Source: Mycobacterium sp. (GTDB taxonomy: Bacteria; Actinomycetota; Actinomycetes; Mycobacteriales; Mycobacteriaceae). Taken from it: a stretch of DNA of 64,000 nt. Location of the stretch: contig JAGQTV010000028.1 in the NCBI GenBank assembly GCA_020438845.1, forward strand, positions 1 to 64,000, read 5' to 3'. The notes beneath the pieces were generated by a model, which was given only the letters and a program-made list of their open reading frames with translations, did not search any database and had not been told where the DNA came from. Each line of letters opens with the position of its first letter. The stretch's first letter is position 1. A program made the position numbers and the translations under genes. Shown here one piece after another: positions 35,733 through 42,089 of the stretch.

Positions 35733-38700
35733 ATGCCGTTGATGAAGGGGGTCTCAGCGGCACGGATCAGGCCGGGGATCGCGCAGACCACCACCGACCC
35801 CGGGTTCCTGCGGTGTGCGAGGTATGTGGGACGGGTGGGTGCCTTGGCAGTTGCCTTAGGTGCCGGAGCGGTGATCCTGTCGATGCCGGCCGTCGCGTTC
35901 GCCGATCAGGACGTTTCGACGGTTTCGGGGTCGCCGGGGTCGCTAGCGACGGGCGGACTACGGTCGACCGGCCACGCAGTGTCCAAGACGCGCCCGCGGG
36001 TGGCCGGCCCCAACGGCGGTGGAGTGCGTCCGGCTTCTGGCGCGAGGGCGGTCAGCGCCGCGACCGCACCGGGGAGGTCGCATTCAGGGCCCAATGCTAT
36101 TGGCGACGACGCCTCGGGTGGTTCCAGCCCGGCCGCACGACAGGGTGGCTCGGGTGCGCGGCAACTGCTCGCGAGGCACAACCTGACGTCCGTGTCCGTG
36201 TCGTCGCGCCCGCTTCGCGCCTCGGGCGCTGCCGGTGGCGCTTCTCGGAGGAGCTACCCCGCGCCCGCGGTATCGGCTTCAGCCGTGACCGGCCCGGCAG
36301 CGGCGCGACCCGATGGTTTGTGGTTGTTCGGCAATGGCACCGCTGAGCATCCCGATGGCGGGGTTTTGATCGGGAATGGCTACAGCTGGACCGGCTACGG
36401 CGGGACCTGCACCAGCGGTGCTTGCACCGGTGGTGACGGCGGGCTGATCGGTAGCGGCGGCGACGGATACAACGGAGGCAACGGAGGGTCTGCCGGCTGG
36501 TTCGGCCACGGCGGTAACGGCGGGGGCGGTGTCGCTGGCGGTGACGGCGGTCGCGGCGGTCGCGGCGGGTTGTTCGCCGGTCGTGGCGGTGACGGCGGGG
36601 CAGGTGGGGCAGGGAGTGACTCGGGCCGTGCAGGCGGAAACGGCGGCGGCGGCGGTGATACCGGATTGCTGTCGGTGTGGGGCAACGGCGGCAGTGGTGG
36701 CTCGGGCGGTGCTGGTGCTGCAGGCGCAGGCGGCGCCACCGCAGCCGGTGCGGGCCGGTCTGGGACGGATGGCACCGTCGGCGGCGACGGAGGTTCGGGC
36801 GGGCATGGCGGTGCGGGCAGCTGGTTGGCGGGTTTCGGCGGTGCCGGTGGCGTGGGGGGGGCGGCGGGAGCCGGCGGCAACGGCGGCAGCGGGGCCAGTG
36901 GAGCCGACGCAACCACCGCCGGTGGGGTCGGTGGTGCGGGCGGTGACGGCGGCAGCGGAGCCGAGGGCGGTATCGGGGGTGCGGGCGGGGATGCCGGTCG
37001 AGCCCGCGTGTTGTTCCTCGTCACCACCAACGGTGCCAACGGCAGTGGCGGTGCGGGCGGAGGCGGTGGCAACGCCGGCACTCCCGGTGACGGGGGTGCC
37101 GGTGGCGCCGGCGGTTTCGGCACTCCCGATGGTGGTCGCGGCGGTGACGGTGGGAATCCCGGAGCCGCGGGTGGCGGCGGTGCCGGCGGTGCAGCGGGCA
37201 CCGGGGGCAGTGGTGGCAGCGCCGGCCCCGCCGGGGCTGCTGGGGTATCGGTGGCCGGCGCGGCGGGTAACGGCGGGAACGGTGGGTCCGGCTTCTCGAC
37301 CAGTGTCGTCGGTGCGGCTAGCGGCCGTGGCGGCCGCGGCGGCGACGGTGGGCGAATTGGTAACGGCGGCAACGGGGGTTCTGGCGCAGCCGGCGGTCAG
37401 GGCAGTGATGGCGGTGATGGCGGTGACGGCGGATCGGCGGGGTCGACGTCGGGAAACGGCGGCAACGGGGGTGCAGGCGGAGCGGGCGCGATCCGCGGCG
37501 AAGTAACCTTCACCGTAATTGCCACGATCAACGTCGGCAGTAGCCCGATGGGTGTGGCGGCCAGTCCAAAAGCCCGGGCCTACGTCACCAATCATGGCGG
37601 CAATACCGTTTCGGTGATCGACACCGACCCAGACAGTGACACCTACAACCAGGTCATCGCCACCGTCTCGGTCGGCGGCAGCCCCCAAGGGGTGGCAGTC
37701 GACTGGTACAACGACAGCGTCTACGTCACCAACACAGGCGACAACACCGTCTCGGTGATCGACACCGACCCGGACAGTGACACCTACAACCAGGTCATCG
37801 CCACCGTCTCGGTCGGCAGCAACCCCCAAGGGGTGGGGGCCAACATCGGCGGCTTCCGCGCCTACGTCACCAACACCGGCGACAACACCGTGTCGGCGAT
37901 CGATACCAACCCCTACAGCGGCACCTACAACCACGTCATCGCCAACATCCTGGTGGGTAGCAACCCCTCGGGGGTGGCGGTCAATCCCGACGACTACCAC
38001 GTCTATGTCACCAACACCGGCGACAACACCGTGTCGGTGATCGACACCGACCCGGACAGTGACACCTACAACCAGGTCATCGCCACTATCCCGGTCGGCA
38101 GCAACCCGTCTGGGGTGGCGGCTGATGACCCCAACTTCAACAGTGCCTACGTCGCCAATACCGGCGACAACACCATGTCGGTCATCGACACCGCCACCAA
38201 CACCGTCAGCGGCACTGTCGCGGTTGGCGGCAACCCGTCCGGGGTGGCCTTCAGCCCCGACAATTACCACGTCTATGTCACCAACACCGGCGACAACACC
38301 GTGTCGGTGATCGACGCAAACGCTCGCAGTGGCACCTATAACCTGGTCATCGAAACTGTTACGGTCGGCACCGGCCCGTCTGGGGTGGCGGTCAGTCTCG
38401 ACAACAGCCACGTCTACGTCGCCGATCAAACGAGCGCCACCGTCTCGGTCATCCAGGTCACCGGTCGTGGCGGAGACGGCGGAGCCGGTGGTGCTGGCGG
38501 TAACGGCGGGGCCGTTGGTAACGGCGGTAACGGGGGGTCGGGCGGTGCCGGTGCGGCCGGTTTCAGCGGCGCCGATGGGGTGTTGGCGGGTGAGGACGGC
38601 ACCAGCGGTACCGGCGGCGGTAACGGCGGTGCTGGCGGTGCCGGCGGCCAGGGCGGGGCGACCTCAGGTAGCGGCGGTTCCGGCGGCGCGGGCGGTTCCG

Positions 38701-41700: not shown

Positions 41701-42089
41701 GCACCGGCGGGACCGGCGGGGCAGGACTGGGACCCAGCGCCCGCGGCGGCGACGGCGGTATGGGGTTCGATGCCTACGCCTACAGCGGCACCAACGTTGC
41801 AACCGCACTGGCCGGAAACGGCGGCGACGGCGGCAACGGCACCGGCGGTGGCGGTAATGGCGGTGCGGGCGGCGAAGCGAGCGCCCCTTCCATCGGAGGA
41901 CTAGCGGGCGGCGGGAACGGCGGAAACGGCGGTAACGGTATCGACCCAGGCGCCGACGGCGGCGACGGCGGGGACGGCGGGGACGCCTCCGCACCGTCGG
42001 GTACTGCCAGCGGCGGCCTCGGCGGTCTCGGCGGCGATGGCGGACCCGGCGGCGATCAGGGAAGCAAAGGCGTGAACGGATCGCCCTGA
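35733..42089 (+). CDS. Giant secreted PGRS-like protein with a seven-blade YVTN-type propeller
   Basis: A 2118-residue protein. Residues 1-57 form a signal peptide (GRVGALAVALGAGAVILSMP, cleavage after AFA before DQDV), in place of the PE domain of PE_PGRS proteins. A Ser/Ala-rich linker runs to about 195. LWLFGNGTAEHPDGG and VLIGNGYSW lead into the first Gly-rich PGRS block (about 230-590; units such as GGNGGAGG, and CTSGACTGGDGG with two Cys). A beta-propeller with seven repeats covers about 593-909 (YVTNTGDNTVSVIDTDP). A second PGRS block of about 1200 residues runs to the end. There is no LPXTG or membrane anchor. ATG 35733 has GGGGGAAGG upstream. It is likely exported and wall-associated; the role is unknown. 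Confidence 0.88.
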   Translation: MPLMKGVSAARIRPGIAQTTTDPGFLRCARYVGRVGALAVALGAGAVILSMPAVAFADQDVSTVSGSPGSLATGGLRSTGHAVSKTRPRVAGPNGGGVRPASGARAVSAATAPGRSHSGPNAIGDDASGGSSPAARQGGSGARQLLARHNLTSVSVSSRPLRASGAAGGASRRSYPAPAVSASAVTGPAAARPDGLWLFGNGTAEHPDGGVLIGNGYSWTGYGGTCTSGACTGGDGGLIGSGGDGYNGGNGGSAGWFGHGGNGGGGVAGGDGGRGGRGGLFAGRGGDGGAGGAGSDSGRAGGNGGGGGDTGLLSVWGNGGSGGSGGAGAAGAGGATAAGAGRSGTDGTVGGDGGSGGHGGAGSWLAGFGGAGGVGGAAGAGGNGGSGASGADATTAGGVGGAGGDGGSGAEGGIGGAGGDAGRARVLFLVTTNGANGSGGAGGGGGNAGTPGDGGAGGAGGFGTPDGGRGGDGGNPGAAGGGGAGGAAGTGGSGGSAGPAGAAGVSVAGAAGNGGNGGSGFSTSVVGAASGRGGRGGDGGRIGNGGNGGSGAAGGQGSDGGDGGDGGSAGSTSGNGGNGGAGGAGAIRGEVTFTVIATINVGSSPMGVAASPKARAYVTNHGGNTVSVIDTDPDSDTYNQVIATVSVGGSPQGVAVDWYNDSVYVTNTGDNTVSVIDTDPDSDTYNQVIATVSVGSNPQGVGANIGGFRAYVTNTGDNTVSAIDTNPYSGTYNHVIANILVGSNPSGVAVNPDDYHVYVTNTGDNTVSVIDTDPDSDTYNQVIATIPVGSNPSGVAADDPNFNSAYVANTGDNTMSVIDTATNTVSGTVAVGGNPSGVAFSPDNYHVYVTNTGDNTVSVIDANARSGTYNLVIETVTVGTGPSGVAVSLDNSHVYVADQTSATVSVIQVTGRGGDGGAGGAGGNGGAVGNGGNGGSGGAGAAGFSGADGVLAGEDGTSGTGGGNGGAGGAGGQGGATSGSGGSGGAGGSGGAGGNGGNGVDGADAWTSGGDGQAGGWSGGGGNGGAGGAGGNAGMALGFGSAGVNGNGGNGGRAGNAGVAGNGGAGAAGDADTPDGGNGGDGGIARFAGSRGAGGAAGAGGSGGIDGVNGAAGDSFRGGTGGDGGDGWDSTTVGVDGGNGGAGGNAGSGGSGEGGDGGNGGRGGNGANGTNGTNGVNPGDSGTDGVAGSNGGAGGDGGAGGWFSYAGNGGAGGRAGNGGNGGSGVDGSDSVNPGTAGNGAAGGNGGKGGNGGAAGEFYGRAGNGGAGGDGGNGGNGGTAGARTPGGDQGATGGAGNGGNGAAGGNGRNAGNGGDGGTGGDGAAGGDGGSGGTGGDSTSDEDANVGGNGGSGGSGGTVGNGGAGGAGGAASNGSSLDAIAGDGGRGGDGGQSAGVGGAGGRGGNASASFVNSDGSVIGGAGGNGGNGTSGGAGRAGGNAATEGTGSVRPGAGGAGGIGTSGIGGAGGRGGDARINNGRSTEDALGAGGGAGGAGGIAGGDGGSGGDASTSGSGTATGGAGADGVNGGSTGVGGRGGDGGAASVTNLGSEATATGGAAGNGGDGTAGGAGGNGGYAGTAGVGSARAGSGGNGGFGTSATGGVGGAGGEARTGNAPADAIGGAGGNGGDGATDGGFGGRGGDVFTAGPGRVIPAVGGNGGNGVTGAGGAGGFGGTARLQGATSTSTVNGAIGGTGGNGATYGGEGGWGGQAWILTPDSSADAVGGSGGAGGVGIIGGGAGGWGGNVFNWGTGTATGGAGANGTSGGSTGVGGGGGRGGFASVSNDVSPGIAFGGAAGNGGDGTDGGAGGGGGSALSKIGEVLPAVGGTGGTGSIGVGDAGGPGGRASLSAAGATAVAAAGGVGGRGILAGGRGGDGGEGFNDRGNAAGGAGGDGGVSTIGTGGAGGTGGASRAFADTQAASSQSGAGGNGGVGVIGGTGGMGGWADGSSGVALTSQGGSGGTGGPGSGRGGDGGVGGLARGDSVNGTVTVVGGTGGTGGAGLGPSARGGDGGMGFDAYAYSGTNVATALAGNGGDGGNGTGGGGNGGAGGEASAPSIGGLAGGGNGGNGGNGIDPGADGGDGGDGGDASAPSGTASGGLGGLGGDGGPGGDQGSKGVNGSP
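37507..38460 (+). repeat. Seven YVTN/YncE-type beta-propeller repeats in the PGRS protein
   Basis: Seven repeats of about 42-47 residues follow one pattern: VIATxxVGxxPxGVA, then a variable segment, YVTNTGDNTVSVID and a DTDPDSDTYNQ linker. Repeat 5 lacks the linker, and repeat 7 ends YVADQTSATVSVIQ. At DNA level the blocks are very alike (for example 37735-37800 and 38010-38080), which suggests recent internal duplication. Seven repeats fit a closed seven-bladed propeller. Confidence 0.85.

Follow-up and report, generated by a model that had tools for sequence, protein, structure and literature searches.

The window analysed here is a stretch of 64,000 nucleotides from a draft genome of Mycobacterium sp. 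that comprises 118 contigs (assembly GCA_020438845.1, contig JAGQTV010000028.1, positions 1 to 64,000). At 35733-42089 on the plus strand it contains a gene for a PGRS protein, whose translation runs over 2118 codons without an internal stop. This gene is real and, as assembled, intact; it belongs to a widespread family of PGRS proteins that bear a Sec-type signal peptide, referred to below as SP-PGRS. Its parts are as follows:

35718..35727, plus strand: ribosome-binding-site-like GGGGGAAGGG, in the sequence ahead of the ATG
35733..35903, plus strand: Sec-type signal peptide, residues 1-57, core VGRVGALAVALGAGA, predicted cleavage after AFA57
35904..36314, plus strand: linker rich in A, S, G, R and P (by composition), residues 58-194
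36315..36518, plus strand: PGRS head LFGNGTAEHPDGGVLIGNGYSWT...C...C, residues 195-262, with Cys226 and Cys231 (alignment A5, hhalign)
36315..37502, plus strand: PGRS block 1, residues 195-590 (GGxGG count)
37503..38465, plus strand: seven-bladed YVTN beta-propeller, residues 591-911 (TIGR02276, PF10282, AlphaFold2, Foldseek)
38466..42089, plus strand: PGRS block 2, residues 912-2118, plus stop (GGxGG counted on 911-2118)

A sequence-only reading had described a signal, a PGRS block, seven YVTN repeats and a longer PGRS block in one 2118-codon frame, and this order is confirmed by translation, motif counts and profiles.

Signal peptide, PGRS blocks and propeller

The signal peptide was assigned from hydropathy, an AxA site, the absence of an RR pair and an alignment with 18 other proteins (A4). 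Residues 1-36 carry a net charge of +5, the protein's six most hydrophobic 19-mers begin at residues 32-39 (best 19-mer 2.15), AFA stands directly before D58, and no RR pair occurs in residues 1-60. Across the 19 rows of A4, which include the window protein, A31, A33 and D34 are invariant, and the pattern VGRVGALAVALGxGAA...AxAD is strikingly conserved in the family.

Features of ESX-5 substrates were also sought. There is no YxxxD/E type VII secretion motif in residues 1-200, and the GRPL motif (GRPLI in PE_PGRS) occurs nowhere in the protein. The PE model PF00934 matches twice in the genome, in frames of 121 and 125 aa on contigs C112 and C1, and has no match on the window's contig. A PE domain upstream, raised as a possible objection to the sequence-only reading, therefore falls away, since both matches sit on other contigs. 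With PE absent, ESX-5 cannot be reached through a PE domain, and Sec is the natural route, as that reading had proposed. From the signal anatomy, we infer that the protein would be exported by Sec and cleaved.

The EccC model scores above its cut-off at two places in the genome. On contig C25, the accompanying EccB matches EccB1 (3x3m) with 544 bits over ~407 aa and 5cyu, labelled just conserved membrane protein, with 585 bits; by these matches the C25 system belongs with ESX-1. The EccC on C110 finds EccC5 as best match (578 bits over 1333 aa), but its last 259 residues score 238 bits against EccC2 (ESX-2) versus 114 against EccC5. It is therefore not an EccC5 orthologue, and on these scores resembles ESX-2 more than ESX-5. 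The 118 contigs of the draft yielded no orthologue-grade EccC5. On C110 (L235, G000:C110) there is an EccB-EccC pair followed by an aldehyde dehydrogenase-like frame (recognized by eye), with no PE match on the contig.

GGxGG occurs 39 times in PGRS block 1, against a shuffled mean of 19.8 (max 32), and 119 times in residues 911-2118, against a shuffled mean of 46.6 (max 69; 500 shuffles each). The head of the first block carries two cysteines that are invariant in 64/64 sequences of alignment A5, and the expression used to select the A5 open reading frames (ORFs) made no demand for cysteine. By hhalign, the SP-PGRS heads match PE_PGRS heads at 97.6% (E 4e-12), based on profiles of 96 SP heads (picked with cysteine in the expression) and 10 PE_PGRS heads, the latter a thin profile. 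SP heads against 52 PGRS interior segments gave 70.8%, PE heads against PGRS interior 91.9%, and five column shuffles at most 1.02%. Given these controls, the two kinds of heads are more alike than shared glycine explains. A separate, short PGRS protein (L048, G000:C37) has a C-terminal domain of ~320 aa without a Pfam match.

Seven YVTN-type motifs are located at residues 617, 664, 711, 758, 806, 848 and 895, compared with 0 in each of 2000 shuffles. TIGR02276 scores 211.4 bits versus a cut-off of 27.85, and PF10282 (Lactonase) 62.6 bits versus 21.7. An AlphaFold2 model of residues 591-916, made with four relatives in the alignment, is a complete seven-bladed fold with 28 strands (predicted local distance difference test, pLDDT, 93.8; predicted template modelling score, pTM, 0.92). 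Its strand list opens with a single strand, followed by six complete blades and a seventh with three strands. In the model the first strand completes the seventh blade, so the two ends of the domain should adjoin. The best solved relative is the archaeal S-layer propeller 1l0q (phmmer 3.6e-57; Foldseek 43% identity), and a propeller flanked by PGRS, as described from the sequence alone, is supported as anatomy.

The SP-PGRS family, its signal and its cargo

The N-terminal part of the window protein finds paralogues in its own genome as well as relatives in other genomes. An alignment of 23 N-termini (A1) has a common signal core VGRVGALAVALGVG, a linker, and a head with the consensus FxGNGTAx[HN]P[ND]AGILxGNGYS...C...C.GG. 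Its profile matches the window protein, itself a row of A1, over 3-268 of 269 positions, and conserved signal, linker, two-cysteine head and PGRS are all present there. Across 297 genomes of the genus, A1 matches occur in 114 at E<=1e-15 and 79 at E<=1e-24; matches weaker than 1e-24 may be to the signal or PGRS alone. No match to the SP-PGRS head was found among the plasmids searched.

A scan of a contig collection that was not limited to the genus gave 410 pattern stretches, of which 238 were confirmed; 80 loci were kept, and 63 head-bearing ORFs were drawn from these. All named isolates among the 80 loci are Mycobacterium or Mycolicibacterium, and many metagenome-assembled genomes are labelled just actinobacterium or similar. 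Four loci, which may be mislabelled, are assigned to Bifidobacterium breve (one), Acidobacteria (two) and Phycisphaerales (one). The strict signal motif is present in 41 of the 63 ORFs, and a hydrophobic stretch with an AxA-type site in 60 (hydropathy rule, threshold 1.6), although in L148 and L191 the stretch picked differs from the conserved signal. The rule failed for L131, which a contig edge truncates, for the second ORF of L135 and for L179 (1.57). PF00934 matches none of the 64 N-termini (63 relatives plus the window protein) at E<=0.01, and one of the 63 relatives has a GRPLI-like string somewhere in its ORF.

The order signal-PGRS-propeller-PGRS was found in four other records (L181, L183, L186 and L188). 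A frameshift or assembly fusion at the propeller borders, the other objection that had been raised, does not hold, given this recurrence and the continuous frame. We thus rejected both that fusion and a PE domain upstream, the frame being unbroken, the contig without a PE match and none of the 64 N-termini bearing PE.

In the window's own genome, a search with just the signal gave 30 matches at E<=1e-3, and 35 at E<=0.01. There, a near-identical signal, VGRVGALAVALG, heads many unrelated secreted proteins (loci L084 and L242-L270), with cargoes that include haem peroxidase, GH16, S15, Calx-beta and PE-PPE hydrolase. Such conservation of sequence is unusual for a signal peptide. The extended signal peptides of the YSIRK and ESPR types are similar in that their sequence, beyond hydrophobicity, is conserved before many cargoes; their motif and organisms differ. 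A PGRS head was detected in 6 of the 30 signal-bearing loci examined, with the correct frame missed by the script in three (L254, L264 and L269). The same signal occurs without PGRS in the small complete genome G002, which has two PE matches (L193), and in the PE-rich genome G023 (L200); the latter indicates that genomes rich in PE can hold the signal too. The PE-PPE hydrolase PF08237 occurs without PGRS in 3 of 10 further signal-bearing loci scanned, and this domain behind a predicted signal peptide is already described for Rv1184c (PMC3037379).

Some cargo is shared with PE proteins. Propeller-type cargo lies behind PE-PGRS in L012 (PF00934) and L030 (PE seen by eye), and behind SP-type PGRS in L181, L183, L186, L188 and L023, the last of which has an N-terminus truncated by its contig. 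The PE-PGRS aspartyl peptidase-like domain PF20729 ends three head-bearing ORFs that lack PE (L152, L170 and L189). Both D[TS]G motifs are kept in all three, and L170 matches the solved structure 4ehc with E 2.8e-54. This protease type is that of PecA and PE_PGRS16; PecA is described in PMC6819658 as removing PE domains in M. marinum.

Among the 63 ORFs, 25 non-PGRS blocks of at least 150 aa follow the head: 5 lie between PGRS blocks and 20 are C-terminal, some of the latter perhaps truncated where a contig ends. All five inner blocks are propeller-like, with lengths of 312-340 aa. Four are of the YVTN type (L181, L183, L188 and the second of L186), as read and aligned, with Pfam run on the L186 block alone; the first inner block of L186 is BNR/sortilin-like, below cut-offs. 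Adjoining propeller ends would allow insertion into a loop, and we suggest that this may be why the inner cargo was propeller-like in all five cases seen. A propeller match was also obtained for the C-terminal block of L151. Of the 19 blocks out of 25 that were compared with Pfam, 12 have no family at E<=1e-4.

Several loci combine these parts in other ways. L186 carries two different propellers in one PGRS protein, BNR/sortilin-like and then YVTN, each between PGRS blocks. L271 (G241:C1) encodes a PGRS protein with two YVTN propellers. Among the members of a poorly resolved tree of 17 propellers, its first is the one most identical to the window propeller (53%), and its second groups with PE-type propellers at 85/98; a clear signal or PE was not seen at the start of the frame, whose N-terminus is unclear. 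L272 (G045:C1) holds two tandem PE-PGRS-propeller genes with frames broken within PGRS in the assembly.

Distribution and genomic setting

At E<=1e-24, SP-PGRS was found in 78 of 198 genomes with fewer than 10 PE matches versus 1 of 99 with at least 10. Divided by PE matches per genome, it is present in 70/155 genomes with 0-4, 8/43 with 5-9, 1/39 with 10-15 and 0/60 with at least 16; the one genome in the 10-15 class is G255 (E 4.2e-25). G255, G043, G278, G289 and G197 combine SP-PGRS matches at this level with 6 or more PE matches, and may thus hold both types. Fast growers are reported to hold only the PE/PPE of ESX-1 and ESX-3 loci (PMC7028111; older source PMC1660551).

The gene is placed between lpqB and a comF-like/hpf/secA group, with these neighbours:

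31321..33078, plus strand: lpqB (NF010141, 766 bits)
33447..34586, minus strand: SAM-dependent carboxyl methyltransferase (PF03492)
42176..42865, plus strand: ComF-like phosphoribosyltransferase, weak (PF00156 and PF18912 at E 0.002-0.003, below Pfam cut-offs)
43050..43766, plus strand: ribosome hibernation factor HPF (TIGR00741)
43908..46676, plus strand: SecA, general Sec ATPase (NF009538, TIGR00963)

Proposed export route and rival explanations

We consider it probable that the gene belongs to a Sec-routed family of SP-PGRS surface proteins that runs parallel to the ESX-5 PE_PGRS proteins. This suggests two export routes for one kind of mycobacterial surface protein. The preprotein would cross the inner membrane by Sec and be cleaved after AFA57. 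Outside the cytoplasm, the CxxxxC pair could form a disulfide, capping the first sail. If the analogy to the PGRS sailing model (PMC9436101) is followed, glycine-rich sandwiches at the mycomembrane might carry the propeller so that it points outwards and serves as a binding head. The propeller, its ends adjoining, could then sit in a sail loop and leave the sails unbroken. Anchoring in the mycomembrane, display and ligand binding by the propeller are accordingly put forward here as what the analogy would predict.

Several observations weigh against this reading. The Pfam PGRS model PF21526 has no match for the window at E<=1, and just 6 of the 64 N-termini in A5 match it weakly at E<=0.01 (best 0.0031). 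In an AlphaFold2 model of residues 185-1000 the propeller is kept, with a mean pLDDT of 60.4 and most of the PGRS below 50; the shape of the sails and the merging of two sails are thus without support here, and the insertion idea is neither supported nor refuted. The tree of 17 propellers, made to ask whether cargo had moved between SP and PE proteins, has 1 of 14 inner branches starred. It was built from 21 named sources with rows from 15 (none from L188, L186, L010, L021, L016 and L015), and of L012 and L030 it includes a part (171 and 173 aa).

The position of the gene is a further point. The region around hpf was compared across 28 loci in 27 genomes (18 from the genus, counting the window's own, plus 10 from other genera), each locus extending at most ~1.5 kb from hpf and some less. 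A PGRS-like frame upstream of hpf is absent from 26 of the 27 other loci; in the remaining one, L234 from another genus, a minus-strand frame upstream of hpf has two GGxGG motifs. A PGRS tail lies upstream of hpf at the window's own locus and not in those 26, which makes the gene look locally inserted rather than syntenic. Within that reach, none of the hpf loci showed an orthologue in synteny at the lpqB-hpf-secA site.

Similar caution applies to the distribution. Fisher's test on the exclusion of PE and SP-PGRS gives 1.6e-15 with kinship not corrected for, the exclusion may merely follow a deep split of the genus, and the census scored ~8 candidates per genome. As a control, 12 genomes (10 PE-rich, 2 others) were searched a second time, now scoring every candidate or up to 150 of them, which gave nine matches at E<=1e-6 (best 6.1e-12). 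Six of these are PE_PGRS (L192, L194, L195, L196, L197 and L199), two (L193 and L200) are the signal on a protein without PGRS, and in L198 no PGRS frame was seen. No SP-PGRS protein was found in the 10 PE-rich genomes at this depth.

Four other explanations were weighed. The gene could be a PE_PGRS gene that has lost its PE, or in which an assembly or annotation error hides it, with a spurious signal; PGRS repeats are hard to assemble, and a 2025 review questioned the N-terminus of the PGRS genes in M. smegmatis (PMC11939664). However, neither the contig nor any of the 64 N-termini has a PE match, and the signal-linker-head arrangement recurs in 60 of 63 ORFs from other records by the hydropathy rule and in 41 by the strict motif, which makes such an error very improbable. 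Alternatively, the hydrophobic stretch could be an uncleaved signal anchor that tethers the protein to the inner membrane, with the PGRS in the periplasm or wall and never at the surface. The long n-region of ~35 residues fits this, and we know of no mycomembrane route for a Sec product of such size. Set against these points are the strong conservation of AxA followed by D, invariant in the 19 rows noted above, and a stretch that is short and moderately hydrophobic (2.15 at best), and we regard the anchor as unlikely.

The propeller might be an enzyme (a lactonase or YncE-like) rather than a binding head, with PGRS serving just to localize it. The Lactonase score of 62.6 versus 21.7 bits and the protease-type PF20729 cargo of other family members favor this, but the best solved relative, 1l0q, is an S-layer propeller and no enzyme, and we think an enzyme quite unlikely. 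PGRS could also be a self-expanding GC-rich repeat of little function that spread into several secreted-protein genes, as the very variable block lengths and the locus that is not conserved would allow. A frame kept over 2118 codons, two head cysteines without exception in 64 sequences, GGxGG order far above composition and specific shared cargo all make this improbable.

The SP-PGRS proteins can be set beside several known systems. They share with PE_PGRS, the ESX-5 substrates, the PGRS repeats, a similar head, aspartyl protease and YVTN propeller cargo, and very long sails. They differ in having a signal peptide for PE, a two-cysteine insert in the head, and neither GRPLI nor YxxxD/E; in addition, their cargo can lie inside PGRS. 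The relative 1l0q is likewise a YVTN propeller on a surface protein, but is archaeal and has PKD domains instead of PGRS.

The closest precedent for swapped export modules is LipY, whose catalytic domain is described as fused to PE in M. tuberculosis, PPE in M. marinum and a canonical signal peptide in M. gilvum, the modules being called interchangeable (PMC3586085). There, too, the same cargo lies behind interchangeable export modules, so the principle is already known. LipY is one enzyme, whereas in SP-PGRS the scaffold and its cargo form an entire family that has a conserved signal of its own. For M. smegmatis and Mycolicibacterium, the 2025 review also describes clear PGRS domains, whose localization is disputed (PMC11939664). 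These proteins, likened here by description, are probably of the same kind, PGRS in species without the PE_PGRS expansion. The review's treatment of them left the N-terminus and export open; the present analysis defines a class with a Sec-type signal and counts its members. The term "undescribed surface system" in the sequence-only reading is therefore overstated, as relatives occur in 79 of 297 genomes of the genus and both PGRS in fast growers and LipY module swapping are published. Within a limited literature search we found no description of a Sec-routed PGRS class, the conserved signal or the two-cysteine head, and the strings GRVGALA and VGALAVALG were not found in the literature searched.

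A broader scenario is offered tentatively, at somewhat less than even confidence. PGRS may be an older surface-display scaffold of mycobacteria, independent of export route, that one lineage loads with cargo through Sec by means of a conserved signal, with slow growers having moved scaffold and cargo (propellers and aspartyl protease) to PE and ESX-5. As part of the same scenario, held with the same reserve, propellers alone might be insertable into a sail since their ends meet.

Why PGRS exists, and whether PE is needed for its function, has long been asked, for the most part in pathogens that are difficult to work with. The presence of a PecA-like protease in proteins that lack PE raises the question of its role there, and a conserved signal with 30 matches in one genome is a question in its own right. 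A Sec-routed family would bear on the review's open remark about the N-termini of fast-grower PGRS proteins (PMC11939664). If the Sec-routed reading is true, this family in environmental mycobacteria would separate the scaffold from ESX-5, and would offer a natural experiment on each part.

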